Below are positions 6,746 through 45,512 of a stretch of DNA of 64,000 nt, piece after piece. A program made the position numbers and the translations under genes. Origin of the DNA: Manis javanica. Lineage: Eukaryota; Chordata; Mammalia; Pholidota; Manidae. The notes below the pieces were generated by a model. It was not told the origin of the DNA and did no database searches. It saw only the letters and a list, made by a program, of their open reading frames with translations. Position 1 is the stretch's first letter. Every line of letters starts with the position of its first letter. Where the stretch lies: positions 45,583,629 to 45,647,628 of the forward strand of contig NC_133165.1 in assembly GCF_040802235.1 (NCBI RefSeq). Reading direction: 5' to 3'.

Positions 6746-6760
6746 CTATCCTTGATCTTT
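6746..6760. repeat. Target-site duplication, left copy (CTATCCTTGATCTTT)
   Basis: Fifteen bases identical to 8484-8498. They flank the chimeric element and lie within antisense L1 ORF1. The pair shows insertion by target-primed reverse transcription. Confidence 0.9.
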
Positions 6761-6771
6761 TTTTTTTTTTT

Positions 6772-6786
6772 GAGAGGGCATCTCTC
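6772..6786. promoter_or_regulatory. Terminal GAGAG/CTCTC palindrome and poly(A) signal of the chimeric tail
   Basis: The last bases before the poly(A) tail form a small imperfect palindrome (GAGAGGGCATCTCTC on the + strand). AATAAA lies just upstream on the - strand (6790-6795). The same arrangement recurs at 37637-37660. The 3' end is therefore fixed in this family and looks like a retroviral R-region poly(A) site. Confidence 0.7.
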
Positions 6787-6907
6787 ATATTTATTGATCA
6801 AATGGTTGTTAACAACAATAAATTCTGTATAGGGGACTCCATGCACAATCATTAATCAACCCCAAGGCTAATTCTCAACAGTCTCCAATCTTCTGAAGCA
6901 TAACGAA

Positions 6908-6972
6908 CAAGTTCTTACATGGTGAACAAGTTATTACATAGTGAATAAGTTCTTACATGGTGAACAGTGCAA
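6908..6972 (-). repeat. Three ~19-20 bp direct repeats in the LTR-derived tail
   Basis: Three imperfect units of the TTCTTACATGGTGAACAAG type stand in tandem. The same set occurs at about 37776-37838 in the long copy. Such short direct repeats are typical of LTR regions, but no function can be read from them. Confidence 0.65.
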
Positions 6973-7747
6973 GGGCAGTCATATCACAGAAACTTTTGGT
7001 TTTGATCACGCATCATTAACTATAAACAATCAAGTCAGATATGATTATTCTGTTGATTTTTATAGTTGATTTATATGTGAATCCCACATTTCTCTATTAT
7101 TATTATTATTTTAATAAAATGCTGAAGTGGTAGGTAGATGCAAGATAAAGGTAGAAAACATAATTTAGTGCTGTAAGAGGGCAAATGTAGATGATCAGGT
7201 CTGTGCCTATAGACTAAGTATTAATCCAAGCTACACAAGGGCAACAAAACATCCACGGATGCAGAAGATTTCTCTCAAAACAGGGGGGTGAGGTTCTAAG
7301 CCTCACCTCTGTTGATCCCCAATTTCTCACCTGATGGCCCCCCTGCGATTGTGCCTGTCTTAGGTTCTTCCTCCCTTGAGGAATCTTACCCGTCTCTGGC
7401 TAACCAGTCATCTTCCTGGGCCATACAGGGAAATGTAAAGTTGGTAAGTGAGAGAGAAGTAATATTGTTTGAAAAGGTTAGCTTTTTACTTCTTCGCAGA
7501 TTTATGCCCTGTGGCTTCTATGCCCAGCATTTGTGTTGAGGTATCTTTACCACTTGGAAGAATTATGATACTCGGTAATTTTTGATATGAGGCACGAATT
7601 CTACTAAAGGGTTGTAATTAGGAAGGAAGAAGAAAAGCTATAGAAGTAGCAGATGGAAGAAAACATGGGAAGATTGATTATTTCTTTGACATATCTTCTT
7701 GTAGAGTAACAAGCATGTATAGGTTTTAACAAACTACTAATTAAATT

Positions 7748-8122
7748 TCATACACACATGAACAGAATGGGAATACAGATACATAACAAAAGCAGACCTA
7801 CAATTACCAGCCATACCCAGTGAAACCAAGAAAACCAGTTAGGTACCCTAGGCATTTGTGAAAACTTATCAATGATATGATGGATATTGTCTAACTGAAT
7901 TTGAATAGTTTGAGAAAAATCAGACAAATTAAAACAACACATTCCTGGGAACTGTTCACATCCCATATGTTCTTTTAACAGTAGATAGTCTATAGTCACA
8001 TGATTTTGGAGCTCTGCAACTTGCACTTCTCCTAATTCTTGGTTGAGTTCCAACAGTATAGATCCAGTCAAATTTGTTCTTTTACTGTATGCACAGGAAA
8101 GCTTAGATATCTCCTTCTTCAT
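7748..8122 (-). pseudogene. Env transmembrane-subunit (TM) frame in spliced chimeric copy
   Basis: A 124-codon open frame. The open frame extends ~25 codons upstream of the Met into a small-residue/hydrophobic stretch like a fusion peptide, before an in-frame TGA. Downstream are a heptad-like region, a CX6CC motif of the kind that links TM covalently to SU, a Trp-rich membrane-proximal stretch and a hydrophobic anchor. The cytoplasmic tail present in the sister copy (38534-38962) is cut off by a stop. No signal peptide and no SU domain are encoded, because the founder sequence lacks SU. It is recognised as env-derived by architecture and motif. Whether it is ever translated cannot be told from sequence. 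Confidence 0.8.
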
Positions 8123-8483
8123 TCCAGTGGCAAGTCCAGGAACCGGTGGGATGAATGCAGCTACAACTGCAACAGCGCCAGGATCTTTGTTGAAGTTTTT
8201 TGATGATCATCTTCTGGAATGACTCTTCCAGAGGATGTTGATGTTGGAAGTTCTTCTTCATATCATATCTTAATTCATTTTCTGGGTAGCCAAATTAGGC
8301 TTTGATCCTCCCTTTCACCAGGCGCTGGATTCTCACAGGTGTGGATGTAGTCTGGCTGTTGTCCTGTGTCTTCTGGTCTCTCTTTTAGGATTAGTTGTAT
8401 TTGTTGTATTTTTAAAAAATATACATGCTTTTGGGAGGAGATTCCCACTGTCCTACTCATGCTGCCATCTTGGCTCTGCCCCA

Positions 8484-8498
8484 CTATCCTTGATCTTT
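8484..8498. repeat. Target-site duplication, right copy
   Basis: Identical to 6746-6760. Antisense L1 ORF1 sequence continues uninterrupted after it. Confidence 0.9.
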
Positions 8499-12264: not shown

Positions 12265-12614
12265 AATTTTTTTATTTTGATATCATTAATCTACAATTAC
12301 ATAAGAACATTATGTTTACTAGGCTCCCCCCTTCACCAAGTCCCCCCGCAACATACCCCTTCACAGTCACTGTCCATCAGCATAGTAAGATGCTGTAAAA
12401 TCACTACTTGTCTGCTCTGTGATGCACAGCCCTCCTTGTGCTCCCCCTACACTATACATGCTAATTGTAATGCCCCCTTTCTTTTTCCCCATCCTTGTCC
12501 CTCCCTTCCCACCAATCACCCCCAGTCCCTTTCCCTTTGGTAACTATTAGTCCATTCATGGGTTCTGTGATTCGGCTGCTGTTTTGTTCCTTCAGTTTTC
12601 CTTTGTTCTTATAC

Positions 12615-15600
12615 TCCACATATGAGTGAAATCATTTGGTACTTGTCTTTCTCCACCTGGCTTATTTCACTGAGCATAATACCCTCTAGCTCCATCCATG
12701 TTGTTGCAAATGGTAGGATTTGTTTACTTCTTATGGCTGAGTAATATTCCATTGTGTATATGTACCACATCTAATTTATCCATTCATCTACTGATGGACA
12801 TTAAGGTTGCTCCCATATCTTAGCTATTGTAAATAGTGCAGTGATAAACATAGGGGTGCATCTGTCTTTTTCGAACTGGAGTGCTGCATTCTTAGGGTAA
12901 ATTCCTAGAAGTGGAATTCCTGGGTCAAAAGGTAAGGCTGTTTTGAGCATTTTGAGGAACCTCCATATTGCTTTCCACAATGGTTGAACTAATTTAGATT
13001 CCCACCAGCAGTGTAGGAGGGTTCCCCTTTCTCCACAACCTTGCCAACATTTGTTGTTGTTTGTCTTTTGGATGGTAGCCAGCCTTACTGGTGTGACGTG
13101 ATACCTCATTGTGGTTTTAATTTGCATTTCTCTGATAACTAGCGATGTGGAGCATCTTTTCATGTGTCTGTTGGCCATCTGAATTTCTTCTTTGGAGAAC
13201 TGTCTGTTCAGCTCCTCTGCCCATTTTTTAGTTGGATTATTTGCTTTTGTTTGTTGAGGTGCATGAGCTCTTTATATATTTTGGATGTCAACCCTTTATC
13301 GGATCTGTCATTTACAAATATATTCTCCCATACTGTAAGGTACCTTTTTGTTCTATTGATGGTGTCCTTTGCTGTACAGAAGCTTTTCAGCTTGATATAG
13401 TCCCACTTGTTCATTTTTGCTTTTGTTTTCCTTGCCCAGGGAGATATGTTCGTGAAGAAGTCACTAATGTTTATGTCCAAGAGATTTCTGCCTATGTTTT
13501 TTCAAAGAGTTTTATGGTTTCATGACTTACATTCAGGTATTTGATCCATTTCAAATTTACTTTTGTGTATGGGGTTAGACAGTGATCCAGTTTCATTCTC
13601 TTACATGTAGCTGTCCAGTTTTGCTAGCACCATCTGTTGAAGAGACTGTCATTTCCCCATTGTATGTCCATGGTTCCTTTATCGTATATTAATTGACCAT
13701 ATATGTTTGGGTTAATGTCTGGAGTCTCTAATCTGTTCCACTGGTCTGTGGCTCTGTTTTTGTGCCAGTACCAAATTGTCTTGATTACTGTGGCTGTGTA
13801 GTAGAGCTTGAAGTTGGGGAGCGAGATCCCTCCAACTTTATTCTTCCTTCTCAGGATTGCTTCGGCTATTCAGGGTCTTTGGTGTTTCCATATGAATTTT
13901 TGAACTATTTGTTCCAGTTCATTGAAGAATGTTGGTAATTTCATAGGGATTGCATCGAATCTGTATATTGCTTTGGGCAAGATGGTCATTTTTACAATAT
14001 TAATTCTTCCTAGCCAGGAGCATGGAATGACTTGCCATTTGTTAGTGTCCTCTTTAATTTCTCTTAATAGTGTCTTAATTTCAGGGTATAGGTCTTTCAC
14101 TTCCTTGGTTAGGTTTATTCATAAGTATGTTATTCTTTTTGATGCTATTGTGAATGGAATTGTTTTCCTGATTTCTCTTTCTGCTAGTTCAGTGTTAATG
14201 TATAGGAGAGCCATGATTTCTGTGTGTTAATTTTGTATCCTGCAACTTTGCTAAATTCCGGTATTAGTTCTAGCAGTTTTGGTGTGGAGTCTTTAGGGTC
14301 TTTTATGTACAGCATCATGTCATCTGCAAATAGTGACAGTTTGACTTCTTCTTTACCAATCTGGATTCCTTGTATTTCTTTGTTTTGTCTGATTGCTGTG
14401 GCTAGGACCTCCAGTACTATGTTAAATAACAGTGGGGAGAGTGGGCATCCCTGTCTTGTTCCCGATCTCAGAGGAAAAGCTTTCAGCCTCTCACTGTTCA
14501 GTATGATGTTTGCGGTGGGTTTATCATATATGGCCTTTATTATGTTGAGGTACTTACCCTCTATGCCGATTTTGTTGAGAGTTTTTATCATGAACGGATG
14601 TTGAATTTTGTCGCATGTTTTTTCAGCATCTATGGAGATGATCATGTGGTTTTTGTCCTTCTTTTTGTTGATGTGGTAGATGATGTTGATGGATTTTTGA
14701 ATGTTGTACCATCCTTGCATCCCTGGGATGAATCTCACCTGGTCATGGTGTATGATCCTTTCGATGTATTTTTAAATTCGCTTTGCTAATATTTTGTTGA
14801 GTATTTTTGCATCTATGTTTATCAGGGATATTGGTCTCTAGTTTTCTTTTTTGGTGGGGTCTTTGCCTGGTTTTGGTATTAGGGTGATGTTGGCTTCATA
14901 GGATGAGTTTGGGTGTATTCCCTCCTCTTCTATTTTTTGGAAAACTTTAAGGAGAATGGGTGTTATGTCTTCTCTGTATGTCTGATAAAATTCCGAGGTA
15001 AATCCATCTGGCCCGCTGGTTTTGTTCTTGGGTAGTTTTTTTATTACCACTTCAATTTCATTGCTGGTAATTGGTCTGTTTAGATTTTCTGTTTCTTTCT
15101 GAGTCAGTCTTGGAAGGTTGTATTTTTCTAGGAAGTTGTCCATTTCTCCTAGGTTTTCCAGCTTGTTAGCATATAGGTTTTCATAGTATTCTCTAATAAT
15201 TCTTTGTATTTCTGTGGGGTCCGTCGTGATTTTTCCTTTCTCATTTCTGAATCTGTTGATGTCTGACTCTCTTTTTCTCTTAATAATTCTGGCTAGAGTG
15301 TTATCTATTTTGTTTATTTTCTCAAAGAACTAGCTCTTGGTTTCATTGATTTTTTCTATTGTTTTATTCTTCTCAATTTTGTTTATTTCTTCTCTGATCT
15401 TTATTATGTCCCTCCTTCTGCTGACTTGAGGCCTCATTTGTTCTTCTTTTTCCAGTTTCGATAATTCTGATGTTAGACTATTCATTTGGGATTGTTCTTC
15501 CTTCTTTAAGTATGCCTGGATTGTTATGTACTTTCCTCTTAAGACTGCTTTCTCTGCGTCCCACAGAAGTTGGGGCTTTGTGTTGTTGTCATTTGTCTCC

Positions 15601-16443
15601 ATATATTGCTTGATCTCTATTTTAATTTGGTCATTGATCCATTGATTACTTAGGAGCATGTTGTTAAACCTCCATGTGTTTGTGAGCCTTTTTGCTTCCT
15701 TTGTACAATTTATTTCTAGTTTTATACCTTTGTGGCCTGAAAAGTTGGTTGGTAGGATTTCAATCTTTTTGAATTTACTGAGGTTCTTTTTGTGGCCTAG
15801 TATGTGGTCTATTCTGGAGAATGTTCCATGTGCACTTGAGAAGAATGTGTATCCAGTTGCTTTTGGATGTAGAGTTCTATAGATGTCTATTAGGTCCATC
15901 TGTTCTAGTGTGTTGTTCAGTGCCTCTGTGTCCTTACTTATTTTCTGTCTGGTGGATCTCTCCTTTGGAGTGAGTGGTGTGTTAAAGTTTCCCAAAATGA
16001 ATGCATTGCATTCTATTTCCTCCTTTAATTCTGTTAGTATTTGTTTCACATATGTTGGTGCTCCTGTATTGGGTGCATATATGTTTATAATGGTTATATC
16101 CTCTTGTTGGTCTGAGCCCCTTATCATTATGTAGTGTCCTTCTTTATCTCTTATTACTTTCTTTGTTTTGAAGTCTATTTTGTCTGATACTAGTATTGCA
16201 ACACCTGCTTTTTCTCCCTGTTGTTTGCATGAAATATCTTTTTCCATCCCTTGACTTTTAATCTGTGCATGTCTTTGGGTTTGAGGTGAGTTTCTTGTAA
16301 GCAGCATATAGATGGGTCTTGCCGTTTATCCATTCTATTACTCTGTGTCTTTTGATTGGTGCATTCAGTCCATTTACATTTAGGGTGATTAATGAAAGAT
16401 ATGTTCTTATTGCTATTGCAGGCTTTAGATTCCTGGTTACCAA
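12615..16443 (-). pseudogene. L1 ORF2 (endonuclease, reverse transcriptase), broken
   Basis: The expected length of ~1275 codons fits this interval. Surviving open pieces are 16443-16258 (start of endonuclease), 16307-15330 (endonuclease and linker, 325 codons), 15143-14838, 14738-14184 (reverse transcriptase with the FADDM catalytic motif), 14100-13870, 13480-13208 and 13178-12801 (C-terminal domain). Frameshifts and stops separate them. The intact protein would nick DNA and prime reverse transcription of L1 RNA. Confidence 0.88.
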
Positions 16444-16639
16444 AGTTTCAACTTTAGCTTCTTTACTACCTTACTGTCTAACTTAACTTGCTTATTGAGC
16501 TATTATAAACACAGCCTGATGTTTATTTCTCTCCCTTCTTATTCCTCCTCCTCCATTCTTCATATGTTGAGTGTTTTGTTCTGTTCTCTTTTTAGGAGTG
16601 CTCCCATCTAGAGCAGTCCCTCTAAAATACCCTGTAGAG

Positions 16640-17523
16640 GTGGTTTGTGGAATGCAAATTCCCTCAACTTTTGCTTGTCTTGGAATTGTTTAATCCCTCC
16701 TTCATATTTAAATGATAATCATGCTGGATACAGTATCCTTGATTCAAGGCCCTTCTGTTTCATTGCATTGAATATATCATGCCATTCTCTTCTGGCCTGT
16801 AAGGTTTCTGTTGAGAAGTGTTTTGATAGCCTGATGGGTTTTCCTTTGTAGGTGACCTTTTTTCTCTCTCTGGCTGCATTTAATACTCTGTCCTTGTCCT
16901 TGATCTTTGCCATTTTAATTATTATGTGTCTTGGTTTTGTCCTCTTTGTGTCTCGTCTGTTGGGAGTTCTTTGTGCCTCTGTAGTCTGAGCAACTGTTTC
17001 CTCCCCCTGTTTGGGGAAGTTCTCAGCAATCATTTCTTCGAAGACACTTTCTATCCGTTTTTCTCTTTCTTCTTCTTCTGGTACCCCTATAATGCAGATA
17101 TTGTTCCTTTTGGATTGGTCACACAGTTCTCTTAATATTGTTTCATTCCTGGAGGTCCTTTTTTCTCTCTCTGCATCAGCTTTTATGTGTTCCTGTTCTC
17201 TGGTTTCTATTCCATCAATGGCCTCTTGCATCTTATCCATTCTGCTTATAAATCCTTCCAGAGATTGTTTCATTTCTGTAATCTCCCTGCGGACATCTGT
17301 AATCTCCCTCCAGATTTCATCCCTTAACTGTTGTATATTTCTCTCCATCATGCATCTCCATCAGCATGTTTATAATTTTTATTTTGAATTGTCTTTCAGG
17401 AAGACTGGTTAGGTCTATCACCTTCTCAGGGGTTGTGATTTTGGTCTGTATCAAATTTTTCTGCCTTTTCATGGTGATAGAGATAGTTTGCAGATCTGCC
17501 ACAGGTGATGGCTGGGAGAACAT
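16640..17523 (-). pseudogene. L1 ORF1 (RNA-binding chaperone), broken
   Basis: Starts with a Met at 17523. The N-terminal part (17523-17317) and the coiled-coil/RRM part (17351-16719, 210 codons) are in different frames, so there is a frameshift near 17340. The RRM carries the NICIIGVPE-type strand and the Arg/Lys-rich C-terminal domain. The frame ends early near 16719 compared with the family. Confidence 0.85.
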
Positions 17524-18288
17524 CCCTTCTTCTTGGTTTATGGCCTTCCTCTCCTGGGAGAACAGCGACCTCTAGTGACTTCTGCTAAGCAGCTGCACAC
17601 AGATGGGACTTCTGATTCTTGCCTGCTGCTATGGAGTTTAGCTCCGCATTTGCTGTGGGCGTGGCCTGCCTCGGGCTGCTGCTCTGATATGGCAGAGCCG
17701 TGTTGGAGATGAAACAGCCAGGAGGGTTTTTATCTCCATGAGGGGCCTCTGTGTTCTCTGCTTCCCAGGGGGTAGAGTGCCTGGAGTTCCCCGAGATTCC
17801 CAGCTGCTGGGCTGAGTGTCGCTGGACACTTCCATCCAGCTGTGGGGTCCCTGTCCCTTTAAGACTTTCCAAAAGCACTCACTTCTCTTTGTCTCCAGGG
17901 GGCCAGCTGCGGGGACCCGCTTACAGGTCTTACTGTCCTGTTTCCCTAGTATCCAGCACCCCACGCACCCCGTGTCTGCGCTCTGGTGTGGTTGGCTGGG
18001 GCTGGGTGTTTAGCAGTCCTGGGCTCCCTCTCTCTCCCTGCTCCAAGTCCTCTCCTCCCACCAGGAGCTGGGGGGAGGGGCGCTCGGGTCCCACCAGGCT
18101 GAGGCTTGTATCTTACCCCCTTTGCGAGGCGCTGGGTTCTCGCTGGTGTGGATGTGGTCTGGCTGTTGTCCTGTGTCTTCTGGTCTCGCTTTTAGGAATA
18201 GTTGTATTTGTTGTATTTTCAAATATATATGTGGTTTTGGGAGGAGATTTCCACTGCTCTAGTCATGCCGCCATCTTGGCTCCCTTCT

Positions 18289-18305
18289 CCCTTTCACTTT
18301 TTAAG
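18289..18305. repeat. Probable target-site duplication, right copy
   Basis: Matches 12248-12264 with a 1-base difference. It marks the 5' boundary of the 12-18 kb L1. Confidence 0.7.
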
Positions 18306-21627: not shown

Positions 21628-22812
21628 ATGCAAATGACCCTGCTTTTCCTCCTCTTTGCGGGCATCTTGGTCCAAGAGATGACTGTAAAGTCTTTGGTGT
21701 TGACAACCATTCTTCAGACAACTGTATCTAGTAGCTCCTCTGTTTCTTTAGTCTCTGATACCACTAAGACCCCAAACCTCAAGTCAGCAATCTCTGCCCT
21801 CATAAAAACAAGGGTCACTGAGAAGAATAATAGCACTGGGCACCAGATCTTCCCATCTACTTCAACCCCTTATACAGCCAATGACGTTTCCTCTCCTGGG
21901 ACTTCTATTGCTGTCAGCAGTGGCCAATCTGTCCCGGATCCAGCAAACTCCCAGGAAATTTCCACCAAGCAGTCATCAGTCTTACAGCTTTTTAAAGCAA
22001 CCAGTAACCCTGCCATCTCAGTAATGAATTCTCAACATATGACTAGTGGAATCATGGCAACTAGCTCACTGGAGACCTCCAAGGGGACCAATGGACCCTC
22101 TGTCCCCATGGCAACCAGCTCTTTGGAGAGCTCCATGGAGACCAGTGGACCCTCTGTCCTCATGGCAACCAGCTCTTTGAAGACCTCAATGGGGACCAGT
22201 GGACCCTCTGTCCCCATGGCAACTAGCTCCCTGGAGACCTCCAAGGGGATCAGTAACTCCCCTTCATGCGGGGTAAAAATACCCACTATGACTACCCCAA
22301 AGTCCTCCCCAAATTAAGATCATGGGACAAATGGCACCCTGCTGGTGGCTCTGCTTGTGGCTCTGCTAATGTTCATTGTCCTCATGGCACTACTCCTGCT
22401 GTGGCACCAGCGGCAGAAGCGGAGGACAGGGATTCTGACACTAAGCATTGGTGGAAAGCGCAATGGGGTAGTAGATGCCTGGGCTGGGCCAGCCCAAGTA
22501 TGTGATGAAGAGACTCTGACAGTAACAGCAGGAGGGTCCAGGGGCAACAAGGGTTCTGGGACCTTTGAGGAGGAGGGGTCTGGCTGAAGGCCTACACTCA
22601 CCACTTTCTTCAGTAGACGCAAGTCATGCCAGGGCTCTTTGGCACTAGAGGAGCTAAAAGCTGGGTCAGCCCCCAACCTAAAGGGAGAGGAAGAGCCACT
22701 GGTGGGTGATGAATATGGGCCTGTGGAGCCACCTGATCCAGATGGGCCTGTGGAGTTCCCCACTCCAGATGAGCCAGCAGTGGGAGATGTGGAGGCCCCT
22801 CAGTGCTTGTGA
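21628..22812 (+). pseudogene. SPN: SPN (CD43/leukosialin) single coding exon with two in-frame stops
   Basis: CD43 is the major mucin-like sialoglycoprotein of leukocytes and acts in adhesion and T-cell signalling. The frame starts at ATG 21628, 28 nt after an acceptor at 21600. It shows a hydrophobic signal peptide, a Ser/Thr-rich ectodomain with four 18-residue repeats (22054-22269), a Leu/Val-rich membrane helix (~22342-22398) and a cytoplasmic tail. The tail has the conserved KRRTG and GGKRNGVVDAW motifs and ends at TGA 22810-22812. Total length, ~394 codons, fits the family (human 400). However, TAA at 22315-22317, just before the membrane helix, and TGA at 22585-22587, in the tail, interrupt the same frame. 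No frameshift is seen. The shortened product would be a 229-residue ectodomain without an anchor, possibly secreted, or the gene is lost. The TGA fits a CGA-to-TGA change. Sequencing error at two sites is possible but unlikely. Confidence 0.85.
22054..22269 (+). repeat. Four 54-bp tandem repeats coding CD43 mucin repeats
   Basis: Units at 22054, 22108, 22162 and 22216, each 54 bp, encode 18-residue repeats of the MATSSLETSKGTSGPSVP kind. The human protein has similar 18-residue repeats. The Ser/Thr content marks O-glycosylation sites. Confidence 0.9.
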
Positions 22813-23725: not shown

Positions 23726-25722
23726 GACTGCATGGGTGACACAGTGTGTTTCCTCAGCTCAGCCATCACATCCCTTCCTCAAAGCCTCCCCCACTCAAAT
23801 GTGTACACGAGGCAGAAGGAGAGGAGACCCATAGTGGGGTCTTGATCCCACTGTTGCATACTTAATGTAGTTGTCCCTATCAGGCGAGCTCCTTCCTATC
23901 TCCAAAGGGAATCAGTGAGACTGAGCTACCTGAGGAGTGCCCATGCCCACAGAACCAGGGACTTCCCCTGTGCCTCTGGAGTGCAGAGGAGGGGACAAGA
24001 CCCCAAGACCCAGCTGGCTGTCTCTGAGACCAGCCCAGGCCAGAGCCCAGGGGACAACATGGGCCAGAAGCAGTTGGCATTTCCCTGGGGCAAAGAGGAA
24101 ATTTACAAAGAGGCAGTCGCTGAATCAGTCATTGCAGGGGCTGAGAGCAGATAGGCTGGCCTACAAAAAGAGAAGCCGTGGAGCCTGAGTGCGTGTGACT
24201 GCCATGTGGTCTGGACTGCAGGGGAGGTGGGAGATGTGGGAAGGGCCCAGGTGGGTCAGTCCATGAGGTGGGGGAGGTGAGGGGAGAGAAGGGGCACAAA
24301 GTAGCCACTGCTCCCCCCCTCCAGCTGCTGTGAGTTATGCCACCTGTGTCTGATCTCTGGGAATGGACGAGCAGGGATGGAAACACAGCCTCCACCAGCC
24401 AGGCTGAGTCCACCAGCTGCATCTGGATGCCTTTTCTTACCTCTCTGGACTAACTATAGCCCTCGAACAACAGAAGTGAGTTCCACAAGTCCCTCAGAGG
24501 TGCAGCAATTGCCGTCTTAGACTTGTCAAACCAAACGACCCAATTTCAGGTTTAGAAACTGTTGTCATAAAACTCAGAGGCCATCAGCTACACCTCCTCC
24601 CTTCAACACATGCAGTCACTTTCTGAACCATTACTGGTTTCTAGGTTGTGGGCCAACCTTGAAGGAAATGGGGTGGGGGTGGGGAAGGCACCCAATAGGA
24701 CTCACAGCCCAGAAAATATCAAAATATGTGAAAAGTGTTTAAACAGAGGTACAAAATTTTATGAGTACACTAAAAAAGGGTGTGCACTGCTCCTGGGGAG
24801 AGGGCTGTGGCTGTCCAGGGTCTTTGCCATGGTCACTGCTGTTTCTGGTAGCTACTGGGCTGGCGCACAGTGGGTCCTCAGTAAATATTCATTTGAAGGA
24901 GTGCATGAATGAATGAATGGATGACTCCTTGGAGATTTTGAAGGCTGAGAGGGATTTTGCCATACTGAAAAGTGGGAATGACATTGAGCAGACCCAAAGG
25001 CACCCTAAGAAAGCCTGAGCAGTTCAAGGTAGATTCTGTTTTGGATAAACATGGAATGGACACCTTCCAATTCCCTTGAGAGGAAAACAATGCAAAGGAA
25101 GCAATGGGCAGTGTAAGACCAAAAGGGGGGGAAAAAAAGGAGAGCATGAAACATAAGAAAATATAACATATGGTGATGAGAGGGGATCAAACATATGTTA
25201 GGAAAATCTTTGTAAGTGGCTTATTTTACTTAGCACAGCTGCTAAAAATGATGTTTTTGAAAACTTTGTATTGATTCTGTTATGTGAGGAAAAAGTTAGT
25301 TATTAATCTGTAAATAGATATGATTCTAGTTTTTGTAATAAAACTATAAAAATATAGTCATTTGTAGAAAAAAGATTGGAAGGAAATATCCCAAATGTTT
25401 ACTGTGGTTATCTGTATGGTACAGGTTTATGGGTGATTTTTATTTTGTTTCTGCTTTTCTGTATTTTCCAAAATTTATACAATAAATGCATGTTATTTTT
25501 ACAGTTAGAAAAAATAGTGACAAAAAAGTGTTCACCAGGGGCTGGGGGCTTCTGGTTTGAGGACAGCTGTAGGCAGTGAGGCTTGAAAGCCAGGTTGGAG
25601 CCACACTTTAAAGGGTTCAAGTAGTTTGAATTCAGTTCTGCAACAGTGAGGAAGTCATCAAACCTTAGATCTGTTCTACTCCTCTCTTTTGGGGCCTCAG
25701 CAAATGGTAAACACCATCATTC
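23726..25722. other. Intergenic; old L1 3' end near 25200-25510
   Basis: Unique-looking sequence with a MIR/L2-like tail at ~24850-24925 that ends in GAATGAATGAATG. An old L1-type 3' end (the TTTTCTGTATTTTCCAAAATTT pattern) lies at ~25330-25505. No gene is seen. Confidence 0.4.
25719..25722. repeat. 4-bp target-site duplication (ATTC) of provirus 1
   Basis: ATTC here and at 33830-33833 flank the two LTRs exactly. A 4-bp duplication is usual for gammaretroviral integrase. Confidence 0.85.
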
Positions 25723-26145
25723 TGTTGTGCCCGAAGTAGCGAATCCCAAGGAAACCACCAAGGAGCCAACACAGATGCAAAAGCAAAGAGCCTTTATTCG
25801 AGCTAGCCCGAGCTCAATCTCACATCCGTGCCAACGCAGTAGCCAGGTGCCAAAGAGAGAGCGAGTTTTCCAAGAACAAAAGTTTTATGGGTTTCTAGGG
25901 CGGTTTGTGGGGTGATGGTGATTGGCCCTGGCTGATTGGCTGGGCCTGGGGGTAGTTGGTGGGGTGATAGGTCATGGCTTTGGTCAATTGGCAGAGTCTA
26001 GGGATGGTGGGTGCACTTTTTGCTGACTGGAGGAGAGAGAGAGAGACCAAGCTCCAATTGGCTGAAATAGGATCCAGGTTCCAATTGGCTGAAGTAGAAC
26101 CCAGTCCTGATTGACTGAGGTAGAGTCCAGCAGCTTGCCCTTTCA
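25723..26145 (-). repeat. 3' LTR of provirus 1
   Basis: 423 bp, beginning TG and ending CA. On the - strand U3 holds three ~27-bp tandem units with CCAAT boxes (26054-26134 on the + strand). A CATAAAA TATA-like box follows, then AATAAA ahead of the R/U5 end. Confidence 0.93.
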
Positions 26146-26160
26146 TTTCCCCCTTTCTTT
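26146..26160 (-). other. Polypurine tract of provirus 1
   Basis: On the - strand it reads AAAGAAAGGGGGAAA directly before the 3' LTR. It is the primer site for plus-strand DNA synthesis. Confidence 0.85.
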
Positions 26161-26181
26161 GGATCTTAAAAAGGGACCCAA

Positions 26182-27925
26182 TCATGGGTCCAATGAGGTT
26201 TCACAGTTGTAAGGAGATAAAGGCTGATACTGTTGTCTTAGCACCATCAGCTGAACTGTATTAATTCTATTTTTGACAAAAGTCATCAGTCTATTGAGGA
26301 TACAGGGTCCAAAGGTAAGTAGAAGTAACAGTATTACTAGAGGGCCCATTAAGGTGGAGACTAGGGTTGTTAACCATGGGGAATTGTTAAATAGAGATTC
26401 AAACCATCCTTGTTGTTGTTCCCATTCTCTCTTACGTTTGGCTAAGCCTTCTCGGACTTTAGCCATAGATTCTTTGACAATTCCCAAGTGATCTTTAAAG
26501 AAACAGCATTCTTCCCCCAGGGCTGCGCATAACCCCCCTTGCTGTAAGAAAATTAAGTCTAAACCTCTCCTGTTCTGAAGAACACCTTCTGACAAAGAGG
26601 TTAAAGATTCCTGAAGGTGGGAGATGGAGGTTTCTATTCTCTCGAGGTCTAAATCTATAGCAGCTCTCAAGCTATTATAATGGGAGCTCTGCACTGTTAA
26701 TGAAGCTACTGCAGTCCCAACCCCTGTCAGCCCTATTCCAAAGAGCATTGCAATAGTTAATGCTGAAATGGGTTCTCTCTTAGTGCGTCCGATTTCACTC
26801 GAATATCTCTGATATATTTCTTCTTCTGAGTGATATATGATTTTAGGGAGAAGCTGGATCCTTTAGTCTTATTTAACACCTGCCCGTGGACACAAGGTGA
26901 CAGGCCTGTCGAGCAGGCCCACCAACTTTCTTGGGGTGGGTACATAATAGTCCGGACTGGAGGGGTTTATGGTTGTATTACAGAGGGGTTGATATTGAAG
27001 GGGGGGTATCCTAAACAGAGGCCGTGACCTGACACTGACTGTAAAGTTAGTCCTTGAGTTCTCTGGTGCCATCTACAGGCATTAGGGTCAGAAGTTGTGT
27101 TGTACTGACCCAAAATCACGATTCCCTCATAGAAGGGAGGGCGAATGTCATAGCAGGTATAGGGGAGGGCGATGGGGAGATAGGCGTTGTGGTTGTCTGA
27201 AATTTGGGTGGAGGAGGTGCTAGCACAGGATTTGGGCCTATTCTCTGGGACCTGGCTAGAGGCCTTTCAAGTATCCTGAGCATAAACAAGACTCCATTAT
27301 CATATCCACTCTGGTAGAGTCGTAGTCCCCACATAAGCCCTATTTCCCAGTTTGTTTCTTTTTTTCCTGCATCTGTAAAGGAGATGTCAATTAGGTTGCA
27401 GGTGGGATTAGTCGTGCATTGGGTGTGAGTTGTATTTCGTTGGATTTTTATGAGGCCTGGGGGAGGCTTTCCTGTCAGCCAATGGCATGTCCCAGTCTGC
27501 TCACAACCCCAATTTTTACAGAAAAAATTTGTCCACCCATCACACTGTGAGACCTTGGCATGGTTGGTTGAGGGGGCTGGACATATATAGAAGCAGGTAT
27601 TTTGGAGTTCTTTCATGGAAGCCTGAGTACCACATCCTGGTATCCCTATTCTACCTTCGTGCCAAGGGTCTTGTTTGAAGAGAGTGCACAGGTCCACAGT
27701 GAGGGTAGGCCACCAGGTCCCCCTAGGGTATTGTCCCTTTAACTGGACTACTACTTGGTGGGAAGCTGGGGTAATGATTTGCCATGTACTATTATAGGGG
27801 TATGAGGGTTAGGGTCACGGGTTTTGGCATGAAGAAGGCATAGTATAAGCAACATTAGTGGGGTAAGTGAGAATGGTGCAGTCTTAGCTTTAGAGGATTG
27901 CTTTTGTCCGGCTGACTTTTCCATC
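26182..27925 (-). pseudogene. env: env of provirus 1 (SU broken, TM frame long)
   Basis: Retroviral envelope glycoprotein remnant. A probable start Met and leader hydrophobic stretch lie at ~27925-27810, in the frame that continues from integrase. SU is covered mainly by 27697-27116 (193 codons, Cys-rich with a Pro-rich hinge), with breaks upstream and between 27116 and 26860. A furin-type RTKR cleavage site lies near 26775-26790. TM is an open frame of 188 codons from its first Met (26748-26182). It has a Gly-rich fusion peptide, the LQNRRGLDL motif, a CX6CC motif and a membrane anchor followed by a short tail. Because SU is broken the full protein cannot be made from this copy. Confidence 0.9.
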
Positions 27926-29497: not shown

Positions 29498-29727
29498 GAA
29501 GCTGCTTCCATCGGTGTACCATGTGGCATCTGCTTCTGCCAGTGGCTGATCTCGCAGGTCAGTTCTGACTCCGTGAACATGAGCCAGGATTTCTCCACAG
29601 TCATGGAGTGGTGCCTCCCAGTCCAGGTCAGGGAGGAGGGTGGCTGGGTTCAGGGAAGTGGGTGTCTGGAACAGAATTCTAGTGGGGTTTAAAAGCAGTC
29701 CTTGGTAGTGCGTTAGTCAGGCATTAC

Positions 29728-31365: not shown

Positions 31366-31503
31366 AAGGAATTCTATAGGTTGCCCCTCCACTTTTAGGG
31401 TTACCCTGGGCTCGGGGAGGGGTGCCAAACCCCATCACCCCTAGTCATCAATGCCTTCAGTACCCAGGATAGTAATGGGGGCCTTTTGGGGTCTTTTGTT
31501 AGG

Positions 31504-33023: not shown

Positions 33024-33361
33024 AACTGAAAGTAAGTTGAGGGTCTGTCGGACTGCAGTGGCAGCCGACTTTCCTCACAGATGAGGACCTCGTCCTCCAG
33101 ACGGGGGCAAGGGACGTCTCCCAAGACCCCTGGTCGGTGACCTGCCAGTGCGTCTGCCTAAGTCAATGCCGACCCAGATACAGATTGGAGCTCCTACAGG
33201 CTTATACAGGCTTGTTCATGAACAAAAACAGTGAGACACTGATAGACAAAGACAGAGTGAGACAGAGTGAGACACAGGTAGACAAAGACAGACAGATAAC
33301 TGAGTAGACTCACCAGCCGGCACTAGGCCCCCACGGGTCAGGAGTCCTGGGGGTCTCCGGG

Positions 33362-33379: not shown

Positions 33380-33382
33380 AAA

Positions 33383-37606: not shown

Positions 37607-37622
37607 ACAAGCGCTTGTTTTT
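37607..37622. repeat. Target-site duplication, left copy (ACAAGCGCTTGTTTTT)
   Basis: Matches ACAAGTGCTTGTTTTT at 45520-45535 with one mismatch. It flanks the 7.9 kb chimeric L1. Confidence 0.85.
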
Positions 37623-37636
37623 TTTTTTTTTTTTTT

Positions 37637-39146
37637 GAGAGGGCACCTCTCATATTTATTGATCAAATTGTTGTTTACAACAATAAAATTCTGTATAGGG
37701 GACTCAATGCACAATCATTAATCAACTCCAAGTCTAATTCTCAACAGTCTCCAATCTTCTGAAGCATAACGAACAAGTTCTTACATGGTGAACAACTTCT
37801 TACATAGTGAATAAGTTCTTACATGGCGAACAGTGCAAGGGCAGTCATATCACAGAAACTCAGTTTTTATCACGCATCGTGAACTATAAACAATCAAGTC
37901 AGATATGATTATTCATTTGATTTTTATACTTGATTTATGTGTGAATCCCACATTTCTCCCTTATTTTTTTTTAAATAAAATGCTGAAGTGGTAGGTAGAT
38001 GCAAGATAAAGATAGAAAGCATAAGTTAGTGCTTTAAGAAGGCAAGTGTAGATGATCAGGTCTGTGCCTATAGACAGTATTAATCCAAGCTAGACAAGAG
38101 CAACAAAACATCCATGAATGCAGAAGATTTCTCTCAAAACAGGGGGCTGAGGTTCTAAGCCTCACCTCTGTTGACCCCCAATTTCTCACCTAATGGCCCC
38201 CCTGTGACTGTGTCTGTCTTAGGTTGTTCCTCCCTTGAGGAATCTTACCCATCTCTGGCTGACCAGCCATCTTCCGGGGCCATAAAGGGAAATGTAAATT
38301 TAGTAAGTGAGAGAGAAGCAATATTCTTTGAAAAGGTTAGCTTTTTACTTTGCAGATTTATGCCCTGTGGCTTCTATGCCCAGCGCTTGTCTTGAGGTAT
38401 CTTTACCACTTGGAAGAATTATGATACTCAGTAATTTTAAATATAAGGCATGAATTCTACTAAAGGGCTGTAATTAGGAAGGAAGAAGAAAAGCTATAGA
38501 AGTAGCAGACAGAAGAAAACATGAGAAGATTGACTATTTCTTTGACATAACTTCTTGTAGAGTAATATAAGCATGTATAGGTTTTAACAAACTACTAATT
38601 AGATTGCACACACACATTAACAGAATAGGAATACAGACACATAACAAAAGCAGACCTACAATTACCGGCCATATCCAGTGAAACCAAGAAAACCAATTAG
38701 GTAACCCAGGCATTTGTGAAAACTTGTCAATAATCTTATGGATATTGTCTAACTGATTTTGAATACTTTGAGAAAAATCAGACAAATTAAAACACATTCC
38801 TGGACACTGTTCACATTCCATATGTTCTTTTAACAATAGATAGTCTATAGTCGCACGATTTTGAAGCACTTCTCCTAATTCTTGGTTGAGTTCCAACAAT
38901 ATAAAACTAGTCAAATTTGTTGTTTTACTGTATGCACAGGCCAGCTTACATATCTCCTGCATTCCAATGGCAAGTCCAGGAACTGGCGGGATGAATGCAG
39001 CTACAACTGCAACAGCACCAGGATCTTTGTTGAAGTTTTTTGATGGTCATCTTCTGGAATGACTCTTCCAGATGATGTAGTTGTTGGAAGTTCTTCATAT
39101 CATATATTAATTCGCTTTCTGGGTAGCCAAATTAGGCTTTGATCCT
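37637..39146 (-). other. Retroviral 3' tail exon of the chimeric L1
   Basis: The ~1.5 kb shared with 6772-8309 starts immediately after an AG acceptor (intron end at 39147-39148 on the + strand) and ends at the poly(A) tail. It holds the TM frame, a region with three ~19-bp direct repeats (~37776-37838) and the poly(A) site. Similarity to the spliced copy is about 92% by eye in the TM part. Confidence 0.85.
38534..38962 (-). pseudogene. Env TM frame in the full-length chimeric L1
   Basis: 142 codons from the first Met; the open frame extends ~25 codons upstream through a fusion-peptide-like stretch to an in-frame TGA. It contains a heptad region, a Cys motif in which one of the paired cysteines of CX6CC is missing (3-bp deletion relative to 7748-8122), a Trp-rich membrane-proximal segment, an anchor helix and a cytoplasmic tail. 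No SU or signal peptide precedes it. The same upstream stop occurs in both copies, so loss of SU is ancestral to this tail. Coding capacity today is unproven. Confidence 0.8.
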
Positions 39147-39739
39147 CTGTATAAACACAAACAAACCCTTTGCCCACACTTTGACATGACCTTTATACCA
39201 TTGTGAAGAACCTATTGGAGACCACCACACAGGAACTGCTTTTTTTTTTAGAGAAAGAAATATTATCAGAAAAATACACTTCCATAACTGATCATCTGAC
39301 ACCCTTTAAAAGATCCAAATTAAGGATATGTAAAGCATGCATTAATTGTTAATGCATTTTTGCAGTTAATTTTATCTTATCAGGGAGTAATCCCCTTTTC
39401 TGTTATCATTAATCTACAATTACATGAAGAACATTATGTTTACTAGGCTCTCCCCTACACCAAGTCCCCCCATCAACCCCATTATAGTCACTGTCCATCA
39501 GCATAGTAAGATGTAGAATCACTACTTGTGTTCTCTGTGTTGCACAGCCCTCCCCTTTCCCACACCCCACACATTGTACATGCTAATCATAATATCCCCT
39601 TTCTTCTTCCTCGCACTTATCCCTCCCTACCCTCCCATTCTCCCCAGCCTCTTTCCCCTTGGTAACTGTTAGTCCATTCTTGGGTTCTGTGATTATACTG
39701 CTCTTTTGTTCCTTCAGTTTTTCCTTTGTTCTTATACTC

Positions 39740-42700
39740 CACAGATGAGTGAAATCATTTTGTATTTGTCTTTCTCTGCTTGGCTTACTTCACTGAGCAT
39801 AATACCCTCTAGCTCCATCCATGTTGTTGCAAATGGTAGGATTTGTTTTCTTCTTATGGCTGAATAATATTCCATTGTGTATATGTACCACATCTTCTTT
39901 ATCCATTCATCTACTGATGGACACAGGTTGCTTCTATTTCTTGGCTATTGTAAATAGTGCTGCAATAAACATAGGGGTGCATCTGTCTTTTTCAAACTGG
40001 AGTGCTGCATTCTTAGGGTAAACTCCTAGAAGTGGAATTCCTGGGTCAAATGGTAAGTCTATTTTGAGCATTCTGAGGAACCTCCATACTGCTTTCCACA
40101 ATGGTTGAACTAATTTAGATTCCCACCAGCAGTGTAGGAGGGTTCCCCTTTCTCCACAACCTTGCCAACATTTGTTGTTGTTTGTCTTTTGGATGGTAGC
40201 CAGCCTTACTGGTGTGACATGATACCTCATTGTGGTTTTAATTTGCATTTCTCTGATAACTAGCGATGTGGAGCATCTTTTCATGTGTCTGTTGGCCATC
40301 TGAATTTCTTCTTTGGAGAACTGTCTGTTCAGCTCCTCTGCCCATTTTTTAGTTGGATTATTTGCTTTTGTTTGTTGAGGTGCATGAGCTCTTTATATAT
40401 TTTGGATGTCAACCCTTTATCGGATCTGTCATTTACAAATATATTCTCCCATACTGTAAGGTACCTTTTTGTTCTATTGATGGTGTCCTTTGCTGTACAG
40501 AAGCTTTTCAGCTTGATATAGTCCCACTTGTTCATTTTTGCTTTTGTTTTCCTTGCCCAGGGAGATATGTTCGTGAAGAAGTCACTAATGTTTATGTCCA
40601 AGAGATTTCTGCCTATGTTTTTTCAAAGAGTTTTATGGTTTCATGACTTACATTCAGGTATTTGATCAATTTCAAATTTACTTTTGTGTATGGGGTTAGA
40701 CAGTGATCCAGTTTCATTCTCTTACATGTAGCTGTCCAGTTTTGCTAGCACCATCTGTTGAAGAGACTGTCATTTCCCCATTGTATGTCCATGGTTCCTT
40801 TATCGTATATTAATTGACCATATATGTTTGGGTTAATGTCTGGAGTCTCTAATCTGTTCCACTGGTCTGTGGCTCTGTTTTTGTGCCAGTACCAAATTGT
40901 CTTGATTACTGTGGCTGTGTAGTAGAGCTTGAAGTTGGGGAGCGAGATCCCTCCAACTTTATTCTTCCTTCTCAGGATTGCTTCGGCTATTCAGGGTCTT
41001 TGGTGTTTCCATATGAATTTTTGAACTATTTGTTCCAGTTCATTGAAGAATGTTGGTAATTTCATAGGGATTGCATCAAATCTGTATATTGCTTTGGGCA
41101 GGATGGCCATTTTGACTATATTAATTCTTCCTAGCCAAGAGCATGGGATGAGTTTCCATTTGTTAGTGTCTTCTTTAATTTCTCTTAAGAGTGTCTTATA
41201 GTTTTCAGGGTATAGGTCTTTCACTTCTTTGGTTAGGTTTACTCCTAGGTATTTTATTCTTTTTGATGCTATTGTGAATGGAATTGTTTTCCTGATTTCT
41301 CTTTCTATTAGTTCATTGTTAGTGTATAGGAAAGCCACAGATTTCTGTGTGTTAATTTTGTATCCTGCAACTTTGCTGTATTCCAATATCAGTTCTAGTA
41401 GTTTTGGAGTGGAGTCTTTAGATTTTTTTATGTACAATATCATGTCATCTGCAAATAGTGACAGTTTGACTTCTTCTTTACCAATCTGGATTCCTTGTAT
41501 TTCTTTGTTTTGTCTAATTGCCGTGGCTAGGATCTCCAGTACTATGTTGAATAACAGTGGGGAGAGTGGGCATCCCTGTCTTGTTCCCAATCTCAGAGGA
41601 AAAGCTTTCAGCTTCTTGCTGTTCAGTATGATATTAGCTGTGGGTTTATCATATATGGCCTTTATTATGTTGAAGTACTTGCCCTCTATGCCCATTTTGT
41701 TGAGAGTTTTTATCGTGAATGGATGTTGAATTTTGTCAAATGCTTTTTCAGCACCTATGGAGATGATCATGTCCATTTTGTCCTTCTTTTTGTTGATGTG
41801 GTGGATGATGTTGATGGATTTTCGAATGTTGTACCATCGTTGCATCCCTAGGATGAATCCCACTTGGTCATGGTGTATGATCCTTTTGATGTATTTTTTA
41901 ATTCGTTTTGCAAATATTTTGTTGAGTATTTTTGCATCTACGTTCATCAGGGATATTGGTCTGTAATTTTCTTTTTTGGTGGGGTCTTTGCCTGGTTTTC
42001 ATATTAGGGTGATGTTGGCTTCATAGGATGAGTTTGGGAGTATTCCCTCCTCTTCTATTTTTTGGAAAACTTTAAAGAGAATGGGTATTATGTTTTCTCT
42101 GTATGTCTGATAAAATTCTGAGGTAACTCCATCTGGCCTGGGGGTTTTGTTCTTGGGTAGTTTTTTGATTACCACTTCAATTTCTTTGCCTGTTAATTGG
42201 TTTGTTTAACTTTTGTGTTTCTTCCTTGGTCAGTCTTGGAAGGTTGTATTTTTTAGGAAGTTGTCCATTTCTTCTAGGTTTTCCAGCTTGTTAGCATATA
42301 GGTTTTCATAGTATTCTCTAATAATTCTTTGTATTTCTGTGGAGTCTGTCATTATTTTTCCATTCTCATTTCTGATTCTATTGATGTGTGTTGATTCTCT
42401 TTTTCTCTTAATAAGTTTGGCTAGAGTCTTATCTATTTTGTTCATTTTCTCAATAAGCCAGCTCTTGGTTTCACTGATTTTTTTCTATTGTTTTATTCTT
42501 CTCAATTTTGTTTATTTCTTCTCTGATCTTTATTATGTCCCTCCTTCTGCTGACTTGAGGCCTCATTTGTTCTTCTTTTTCCAGTTTCGATAATTCTGAT
42601 GTTAGACTATTCATTTGGGATTGTTCTTCCTTCTTTAAGTATGCCTGGATTGCTATATACTTTCCTCTTAAGACTACTTTCTCTGCATCCCACAGAAGTT

Positions 42701-43567
42701 GGGGCTTTGTGTTGTTGTCATTTGTCTCCATATATTGCTTGATCTCTATTTTAATTTGGTCATTGATCCATTGATTATTTAGGAGCATGTTGTTAAGCCT
42801 CCATGTGTTTGTGAGCCTTTTTGTTTTCATTGTACAATTTATTTCTACTTTTATACCTTTGTGGTCTGAAAAGTTGGTTGGTAGGATTTCAATCTTTTTG
42901 AATTTACTGAGGCTCTTTTTGTGGCCTAGTATGTGGTCTATTCTGGAGAATGTTCCATGTGCACTTGAGAAGAATGCATATCCTGTTGCTTTCGGATGTA
43001 GAGTTCTATAGATGTCTATTAGGTCCATCTGTTCTAGTGTGTTGTACAGTGCCTCCGTGTCCTTACTTATTTTCTGTCTGGTTGATCTGTCCTTTGGAGT
43101 GAGTGGTGTGTTAAAGTCTCCCAAAATGAATGCATTGCATTCTATTTCCCTGTTTAATTCTGGTAGTGTTTCACATATGCTGGTGCTCCTGTGTTGGGTG
43201 CATATATATTTATAATGGTTATATCCTCTTGGACTGAGCCCTTTATCATTATGTAATGTCCTTCTTTGTCTCTTGTTACTTTCTTTGTTTTGAAGTCTAT
43301 TTTGTCTGATACTAGTACTTCAACCCCTGCTTTCTTCTCTCTGTTGTTTGCATGAAATATCTTTTTCTATCCCTTGACTTTTAATCTATGCATGTCTTTG
43401 GGTTTGAGGTGAGTTTCTTGTAAGCAGCATATAGATGGGTCTTGCTTTGTTATCCGTTCTATTACTGTGTGTCTTTTGATTGGTGCATTCAGTCCATTTA
43501 CATTTAGGGTGACTATTGAAAGATATGTACTTATTGCCATTGCAGTCTTTAGATTTGTGGTTACCAA
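39740..43567 (-). pseudogene. L1 ORF2 of the chimeric element, broken
   Basis: Open pieces are 43567-43367 (endonuclease start with LNVNGLNAP), 43124-42471, 42445-42230, 41947-40991 (318 codons of reverse transcriptase with FADDM), 40601-40329 and 40299-39934 (C-terminal domain). Stops and small indels separate them. The 40090-41077 part is almost identical to 12969-13956, including the lesions. Confidence 0.88.
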
Positions 43568-43930
43568 AGGTTCAAGGGTAGCTTCTTTAGTATCTTACTG
43601 TCTAACTTAGCTCGCCTATTGAGCTGTTATAAACACTGTCTGGTGATTCTTTACTTCTCTCCCTTCTTATTCCTCCTCCTCCATTCTTTATATGTTGGGT
43701 GTTTTATTCTGTGCTCTTTTGTGCTTCCTTTTACTGCTTTTGTGGGTAGTTTATTTTATTTTTTGCCTTTAGTTGTATTTTGTTGGTCTGCTTTCTTTGC
43801 TCTGATTTTATTTTCTCTGGTGACATCTGTTTTGTCTTAGGAGTGCTCCCGTCTAGAACAGTCCATCTAAAATACCCTGTAGAGGTGGTTTGTGGGAGGC
43901 AAATTCCCTCAACTTTTGCTTGTCTGGGAA

Positions 43931-44743
43931 TTATTTAATACCTCCTTTATATTTAAATGATAATTGTGCTTGACACAGTATTGTTGGTTTAAGGCCCTTC
44001 TGTTTCATTGCATTAAATATACCATTCCTTTCTCTTCTGGCCTGTAAGGTTTCTGTTGAGAAGTCTGATGATAGCCTGATGGGTTTTCCTTTGTAGGTGA
44101 CCTTTTTCCTCTCTCTAGCTGCCTTTAAAACTCTGTCCTTGTCCTTGGTCTTTGCCATTTTAATTATTATGTGTCTTGGTGTTGTCCTCCTTGGGTCTCT
44201 TCTGTTGGGAGTTCTGTGTGCTTCCGTGGTCTGATCAATTATTTCCTCCCCCAGTTTGGGGACGTTTTCAGCAATTATTTCTTCAAAGACACTTTCTATC
44301 CCTTTTTCTCTCTCTTCTTCTTCTGGTACCCCTATAATGCGGATATTGTTCCTTTCGGATTGGTCACACAGTTCTCTTAATATTGTTTCATTCCTGGAGG
44401 TCCTTTTATCTCTCTCTGCATCAGCTTCTATGCATTCCTGTTCTCTGTCTTCTATTCCATCAATAGCCTCTTGCATCTTATCCATTCTGCTTATAAATCC
44501 TTCCATAGATTGTTTCATTTCTGTAATCTCCCTCTGGACGTCATCCCTTAGCTCTTGTATATTTCTCTGCAGCTCTGTCAACATGGTTATGAGCTTTATT
44601 TTGAATTCTTTTTCAGGAGGACTGGTTCCGTCTATCTCCTTTTCAGGGGTTGCCTCTGTGATTTTGGTCTGCCTCAAATTCTGCCTTTTCATGGCAATAG
44701 ATATGGTTTGCAGTGCTGGCGCAAGTGACGGCTGGGAGAACAT
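43931..44743 (-). CDS. L1 ORF1 protein of the chimeric element (nearly complete)
   Basis: The open frame of 270 codons begins at Met 44743. It has an N-terminal basic region, a coiled coil (residues ~45-110), an RRM with the NNIRIIGVPEEEE motif (~135-150) and a C-terminal domain with HIIIKMAK and YKGKPIRLS motifs. ORF1p binds L1 RNA as a trimer. The frame stops early after the KYKGG stretch, so the last ~30-40 residues expected from L1 ORF1 are missing. It is the best preserved L1 frame in the window. Confidence 0.75.
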   Translation of the reverse strand: MFSQPSLAPALQTISIAMKRQNLRQTKITEATPEKEIDGTSPPEKEFKIKLITMLTELQRNIQELRDDVQREITEMKQSMEGFISRMDKMQEAIDGIEDREQECIEADAERDKRTSRNETILRELCDQSERNNIRIIGVPEEEEREKGIESVFEEIIAENVPKLGEEIIDQTTEAHRTPNRRDPRRTTPRHIIIKMAKTKDKDRVLKAARERKKVTYKGKPIRLSSDFSTETLQARRERNGIFNAMKQKGLKPTILCQAQLSFKYKGGIK

Positions 44744-45512
44744 CCCTTCTGTTTGGTTTGTGGCCTTCCTCTCCTAGGAGAACAGCAGCCTCTAGCAGCT
44801 TGTGCTGGGCAGTTGCGCACAGAAAGGGCTTCTGATTCTTGCCCAGCCCCTGTGGAGTTTAGCTCCACAGTTGCTGTGGGCATGGCGTGCCTCAGGCTGC
44901 TACTCTGATATGGCAGAGCTGCATTGGAGGGGAAACGGCTGGGAGGCTGTTTATCTCTGTGAGGGGCCTCTGAGGTGCACTGCTGCACAGGGGGTTAGGG
45001 TGTCCAGAGTTCCCCGGGATTCCCAGCTGCTGGGCTATGTGTCCTGGAATGTTTCCATCCAGCTGTGAGGCCCCTGTCCCTTTAAGACTTTCAAAAAACA
45101 CTTGCTTTTCTTTGTCCCCGGGGTGCCAGCTGTGGGGACCTGCTCACAGGTCTCACTGTCCTGTTTCCCTAGTTTCCAGCACCCCTCACACGCACTGTGT
45201 CTGCACTCTGGTGCAGATGGCTAGGGCTGGCTATTTAGCAGTCCTGGGCCCCTTCTCCCTCCGTGCTCTGACTCCTTTCCTCCCACTAGGAGCTGAGGTG
45301 AGGGGCGCTCAGGTCCTGCCGGGCTGCAGCTTGTATCTTACCCCCTTCCTGAGGCACTGGGTTCTCGCAGGTGTGGATATAGTCTGGCTGATGTCCTGTG
45401 TCTTCTGGTCTCTGTTTTAGGAAGAGTTGTATTTGTTGTATTTTCAAAAATATATGTGGTTTTGGGAGGAGATTTCTGCTACTCTACTCACGCTGCCATC
45501 TTGGCTCTGCCA
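44744..45512 (-). promoter_or_regulatory. L1 5'UTR of the chimeric element
   Basis: A GC-richer segment between the L1 start motif and ORF1, expected to hold the internal L1 promoter. It also contains the splice donor at 45341. The opposite strand has an open frame at 45037-45420 with counterparts in other 5'UTR copies. Confidence 0.7.

Follow-up and report, generated by a model that had tools for sequence, protein, structure and literature searches.

A very probable spliced L1 transcript with a retroviral env/LTR exon, retrotransposed in Manis javanica

The window analyzed in this work, the whole stretch of 64,000 nt from Manis javanica (NC_133165.1, positions 45,583,629 to 45,647,628), contains ORFs that we take to resemble SPN (21628) and QPRT (59420), the former with tandem repeats of 54-bp spacing inside it (22052-22254). 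A separate provirus, gammaretrovirus-like by eye, occupies 25700-33800 on the minus strand; its gag-, pol-, and env-like stretches are broken into several ORFs and its flanking repeats (25723-26124 and 33383-33782) are 91.6% alike. The short element at 6761..8483 (minus strand, 1.7 kb) is read from its sequence and from self-alignment as a probable spliced retrocopy made of an L1 5'UTR leader and an env/LTR tail. Exon 1 is the leader (8310..8482, minus strand; delimited by self-alignment), whose last letters are GAAAGGG. Exon 2 (6772..8309, minus strand) begins with AGGATC and comprises an env TM remnant, a post-env stretch, and the LTR up to the poly(A) site, the TM resemblance having been tested on the corresponding stretch of a long copy. 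The joint GAAAGGG/AGGATC (the slash marks the exon boundary here and below) falls exactly between 8310 and 8309. The poly(A) is read as poly(T) on the plus strand (6761..6771; element on the minus strand), and the 15-bp target site duplication CTATCCTTGATCTTT can be read directly on the low side (6746..6760) and on the high side (8484..8498); the insertion interrupts an older L1. In the self-alignment of the window the leader matches two L1 5'UTRs, at 88.0% for 8310-8476 against 18118-18282 and at 87.6% for 8320-8480 against 45352-45511, while 6758-8310 matches the tail of the long copy (37623-39147) at 91.1%.

The long copy (37618..45511, minus strand) is an unspliced chimera by self-alignment, ORFs, and direct reading, running from an L1 5'UTR to a retroviral LTR and poly(A) in the order L1 5'UTR, ORF1, ORF2, L1 3' end, pol end, TM remnant, purine run, and LTR. 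All of its features lie on the minus strand. Its exon 1 (45342..45511) ends at donor D1, AAGGGG/GTAAGA, with the intron from 45341. Acceptor A1, TTCTCCTAG/GAGAGG (44773..44774), directly upstream of ORF1 (43931..44743, 270 aa open in the ORF list), was placed from locus L052, whose first exon bases differ from those of the window, so that this boundary is not certain to the base. Two sites belong to ORF2: donor D2, GCAATAA/GTACAT (43530..43531), used in L052, and acceptor A4, TTTATTGCAG/CACTATTT (39959..39960), in the 3' part of ORF2 and used in L110-L112. Donor D3 in the L1 3'UTR (39665..39666) is mutated in the long copy and reads AACAG/TT. Next follows the remnant resembling, by a weak match, a betaretroviral pol 3' end (integrase C-terminus; 39147..39398), with the tandem acceptor A2, AAG/CAG/TTCCTG (39235..39240; a NAGNAG site), which is placed by D3 joints. 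Acceptor A3, TTTATACAG/AGGATC (39146..39147), opens an exon from 39146 that starts with the env remnant and its TM region (38530..39146; ORFs and protein comparisons), and acceptor A5 behind env, TACTTCTATAG/CTTTTC (38493..38494), is used in L116. The LTR part (37637..37952), read directly, starts with TGTGGG after a purine run and has AATAAA shortly before the poly(A). At the two edges of the joint of the short element, the intron of the long copy opens with GT at 45341/45340 and closes with AG at 39148/39147. An earlier note on this DNA had claimed these GT and AG borders (45341 and 39147), the direct joining of L1 5'UTR to retroviral tail at 8309/8310, and the element's own 15-bp duplication and poly(A), all of which were found. 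A comparison L1 of the same group (12275..18290, minus strand; self-alignment) terminates in a 3' end and A-rich tail of its own and lacks the retroviral part.

The 3' end of the chimera consists of an env TM remnant and an LTR with AATAAA, and a betaretroviral origin is suggested by a weak match. One reading-frame piece of the pol-end remnant (~250 bp) has integrases as its best matches, the first being 3jca (presumably the MMTV integrase) at a weak E of 0.05; a neighboring piece gave no integrase match in the same kind of search, only an unrelated "Tako8." The TM remnant of the long copy resembles retroviral TM proteins, the best PDB matches being an ASLV fusion TM and gp95 (E 6e-9), and one of its 31 protein matches carries PF00429 at 35% identity. 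The earlier comparison of the short element with a retroviral env mRNA stands for the acceptor, but no working Env is implied: only ~110 bp lie between the acceptor and the TM stretch, leaving no room for SU, and stop codons are found ahead of the TM frame. In the window copy there is no ATG between the last upstream stop and the start of the TM stretch. The env frame is open over ~350 bp in 33 out of 59 rows of the alignment. An active env frame was rejected as well, shared variants at codon positions 1, 2, and 3 numbering 12, 20, and 21 (counted without L096 and L102) with the third position not favored.

Genome-wide, the start of the env exon in its first form, that of the window, gave 7,351 matches with 2 mismatches allowed (in spliced and unspliced contexts alike), and a second env form, 74-75% identical to that of the window over ~480 bp in L102, gave 7,854 exact matches without the L1 3'UTR joint before the exon; the reversed control was 0 in both cases, and both figures are pattern counts, not annotated copies. 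All 48 second-form matches with letters listed show a pyrimidine-rich acceptor. Linkage of the second form to L1 was seen at one locus (L102), and this form is perhaps the younger one. The leader donor is well preserved: D1 is kept in 14 out of 15 unspliced loci in which this site could be read (as far as GTA in one of the 14), and the intact site has 765 exact matches genome-wide (reversed-pattern control 0). D3 reads AA(C/T)AG/GTAC in 18 out of 21 unjoined contexts in the loci examined. The window copies read TT at this donor, and L041, L047, and L042 had been considered as microhomology joints; the GT in 18 of the 21 contexts ruled this out.

The joint of the short element recurs, as the check proposed in the earlier note had asked. 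Locus L002 carries it in a copy with flanks and a target repeat of its own, sharing 93.5% identity with the window copy across 1,724 bp; the two leaders are only 85% identical, so that L002 likely derives from a separate source RNA. A third place, C13:66134081, has the exact leader-to-env joint on the second env form, known by 25 matched letters only, and the three copies carry three different leader variants. Several searches bear on the count. Among 2,586 candidates in a leader-end search, 40 matches were scored and one further locus, L002, runs through the joint. A 26-base junction pattern allowing 3 mismatches gave 5 matches, of which the window copy alone is the D1-A3 joint and the other 4 are elements with a 3' deletion (reversed control 0). 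The exact env-exon start without CAG-like letters before it gave 11 matches (reversed control 0); two are the leader-to-env joints of the window and L002, and the remaining 9 resemble truncations, short duplications, or target sites. A pattern built on the other leader class found 131 matches at up to 3 mismatches (control 6), headed by C13:66134081 and with L002 in the second row. There are at least two verified copies and a likely third, the first two of these 131 matches being the ones included in this count. Since the same edges recur elsewhere, with reversed-pattern controls of 0 throughout apart from the 6 just given, chance is excluded. The recurrence and the splice sites at both edges bear out the earlier proposal of a spliced and retrotransposed transcript with a leader exon and an env/LTR exon, but not the suggested abundance of a non-autonomous family with this joint, for which exact matches amount to 2 copies with the first env form plus 1 with the second. 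The hallmarks of L1 insertion (target duplication, poly(A), full-length start) are present in the window copy and L002.

The leader is joined to other acceptors as well. It reaches A4 near the 3' end of ORF2 in three copies (L110, L111, L112), A2 in the pol remnant in four (L051, L113, L114, and L115, the last being the CAG form with a 15-bp gap), and A5 behind env in one (L116). In L110-L116 the leader begins at, or a few bases from, its 5' end. A search for exact leader ends not followed by G, a pattern that leaves out products starting with G such as those of A1, found 22 (reversed control 0): 8 are spliced (three at A4, two at A2, L115, one at A3, and one at A5), and the other 14 are L117 and 13 unspliced copies with altered donor letters. 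Leader splicing thus amounts to ~1%, with 8 spliced ends against 765 intact donors. L052 shows two splices, from the leader to A1 (boundary placed as above) and from D2 to A3; an ORF2-donor class was rejected, this being the single copy genome-wide at up to 3 mismatches (reversed control 0). In L117 (G000:C19:52187660-52188190) the leader stops exactly at the donor and is followed by sequence without a counterpart in the long copy, be it in the L1 or in the retroviral pieces; it may be another spliced chimera.

Judged by the joints in the genome, the commonest spliced class uses the L1 3'UTR donor D3, not the leader. The D3-A3 pattern AACAG/AGGATC gave 168 matches at up to 3 mismatches (reversed control 0). 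Among the 100 matches listed, 46 are exact and 38, 11, and 5 have one, two, and three mismatches, respectively; 95 of them, at up to 2 mismatches, belong to the first env form, and the other 5 represent the second env form, for which a separate search found 104 matches at up to 2 mismatches (reversed control 0). D3 is joined to A2 in 83 out of 100 matches listed (108 in all, reversed control 0), of which 55 keep the CAG and 28 skip it; the 17 others look, by their letters, like truncations or altered A-runs. Wobble in the choice between the two AGs of a NAGNAG site is a known behavior of the spliceosome. Together these make ~280 D3 joints (95 + 104 + 83, from the matches listed for first-form D3-A3 and for D3-A2). 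The D3-to-env joint comes to ~1% when set against the 7,351 and 7,854 env-start matches, which were counted at other stringencies. L1 sequence lies upstream in 30 out of 30 D3-joint loci examined.

Could the spliced form be a non-autonomous family that itself replicates and goes back to a single founder? The point in its favor is the second-form D3-A3 joint, for which 67 out of 100 among the matches listed are identical over 31 bp; the second form as a whole, however, has 7,854 exact unspliced matches, so this identity is no sign of a spliced founder, and the same figure explains the 3-mismatch D3-A3 matches, which had been considered as an amplified spliced lineage. The leader-to-env copies, three including the one known by 25 letters, have three leader variants, and the D3-A3 copies do not form one clade. 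An env-exon tree (60 rows over ~460 bp, with L096 left out for its long branch; 27 spliced and 20 unspliced rows counted, the unspliced rows not a random choice and the bootstrap unsettled) needs 9 changes for the D3-A3 joint, at least 6 of them forced by supported branches, and a single clade of D3-A3 copies is rejected with p-AU 3e-143. Since exact regain of an intron is implausible, most of the 9 changes are read as gains. On this comparison of sequences, the spliced copies belong to several lineages, and a single founder is improbable.

Trans-splicing would instead involve two molecules, an ordinary L1 RNA providing the leader and a separate ERV RNA providing the env exon. Both splice sites are present in cis within one long copy, the spliced tails are collinear with the tail of the chimera, and matches to the start of the env exon run into the thousands, 24 out of 30 loci (the best matches, not a random sample) having L1 in sense orientation upstream. 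These observations argue against trans-splicing, which we consider very unlikely in spite of two points on its side: L1s without a retroviral tail do exist (12275-18290 in the window), and possible trans-splicing is reported for human L1 chimeras in the accessible text of Law and Burns (2026, PMC13174262).

A common internal deletion was observed in L032-L035 and L049, in which CCTGGT of the L1 3'UTR is joined to TATACAG just before the env acceptor; it had been considered as a splice and is instead a shared deletion, and its presence in several copies implies that the deleted form itself was copied. That some joints of the family are thus not splices is what can be said for template switching by the reverse transcriptase of L1, or an internal deletion that followed insertion, as the maker of the leader-env joint. 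This reading is the least likely one and, for the main joints, is refuted by base-exact recurrence at splice sites in unlinked insertions; several donors and acceptors at GT/AG and the NAGNAG wobble also oppose it.

We therefore favor splicing of a chimeric L1 RNA followed by its retrotransposition, with the window element as the leader-to-env product, and regard this as very probable on the sequence evidence. In this account, the native 3' terminus of the L1 lineage is followed by that of a betaretrovirus-like provirus (pol end, env remnant, and LTR to the poly(A) site). The succession of parts (L1 3' end, pol end, env, LTR) leads us to infer that the chimera arose from an L1 that lay in, or immediately ahead of, the pol end of a provirus and whose transcription continued as far as the LTR. 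Its RNA would start at the L1 5'UTR promoter, whose use is presumed, and run to the LTR poly(A) signal; most copies would come from unspliced RNA and about 1 in 100 from RNA spliced by the cell, with donors in the leader, ORF2, and 3'UTR and acceptors before ORF1, in ORF2, in the pol end, in env, and behind env. The window element would have been inserted by target-primed reverse transcription, and since it has neither ORF, the L1 proteins were presumably supplied in trans, a need that would fit the rarity of ORF-less spliced copies. D3-spliced RNAs retain both ORF1 and ORF2 and might, in principle, be mobile on their own. It is conceivable, though we hold it only tentatively and think it somewhat unlikely as a whole, that the L1 lineage appropriated the 3' processing module of a retrovirus, with its splice acceptors and the poly(A) signal of its LTR, and produces full-length and several spliced RNAs in a retrovirus-like manner, and that D3-spliced offspring with both ORFs, unlike human SpIREs, are not necessarily inactive from the outset and may have founded new intron-less L1 lineages. 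On the favored reading, a retroviral 3' end can become a lasting and highly amplified part of an L1, bringing with it a working set of splice sites. Hundreds of genomic copies would record the introns removed by the cell, including the choice at a tandem acceptor, without RNA, and the family may offer a natural test of whether L1 splicing is always a dead end.

SVA elements, with their SINE-R, are L1-mobilized, composite, and non-autonomous, and their 3' part derives from the env end and LTR, with poly(A) signal, of a betaretrovirus-like ERV. The present chimera would resemble SVA in that an env/LTR 3' end supplies the poly(A) signal, the betaretroviral match here being weak; in contrast to SVA, its tail sits on an L1 that still has ORF1 and ORF2 regions. 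The hexamer, Alu-like, and VNTR modules of SVA are absent by self-alignment, everything 5' of the joint in the short element being L1 5'UTR. In the open-access literature, searched by words and judged by titles and the beginnings of abstracts, no account of an L1 that ends in a retroviral 3' part was found.

A closer parallel in splicing is offered by the spliced integrated retrotransposed elements (SpIREs) of human L1 (Larson et al., 2018, PMC5860796). According to the accessible part of that paper, SpIREs make up ~2% of full-length L1PA1-6 (131 of 6,609), fall into three classes with acceptors in the 5'UTR or ORF1, and are mostly dead ends. As far as that text describes them, they share with the copies studied here their origin as retrocopies of spliced L1 RNA, the target duplication and poly(A), and one 5'UTR donor used with several acceptors; their frequency of ~2% compares with ~1% here by a narrower count (8 vs. 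765). The marks by which SpIREs are recognized are also seen here, GT/AG edges in the unspliced element and the joint in independent insertions. Unlike in SpIREs, the acceptor of the window joint lies in the retroviral tail, outside L1. Compared with the SpIRE classes in the accessible text, the leader here also reaches acceptors in ORF2, in the pol/env remnant, and behind env, and the commonest class has a 3'UTR donor and an intron behind the ORFs. Among L1 chimeras with other RNAs, the available portion of Law and Burns (2026, PMC13174262) describes spliced cases in which genes contribute 5' exons that are linked to L1. There as here, splicing would link L1 with foreign sequence before retrotransposition; unlike in the chimeras covered by that portion, the retroviral part here is the heritable 3' end of an L1 family.

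For Manis pentadactyla, the accessible text of PMC12584738 describes ERV-Beta lineages with betaretroviral gag-pol, a gamma-type (CX6CC) Env, and a short LTR of 387 nt, which compares, by description, with ~316 nt up to the poly(A) in the chimera tail. The same text reports one gamma ERV with an L1 insertion that separates ENV from the 3' LTR; unlike that case as described there, an L1 family with a retroviral tail is found here. The link from L1 to the pol remnant was seen in two forms, L036, L045, L053, and L060 being set apart from L037, L043, and L064: it has either ~250 bp of the pol remnant or its last 100 bp only, after an A-run.
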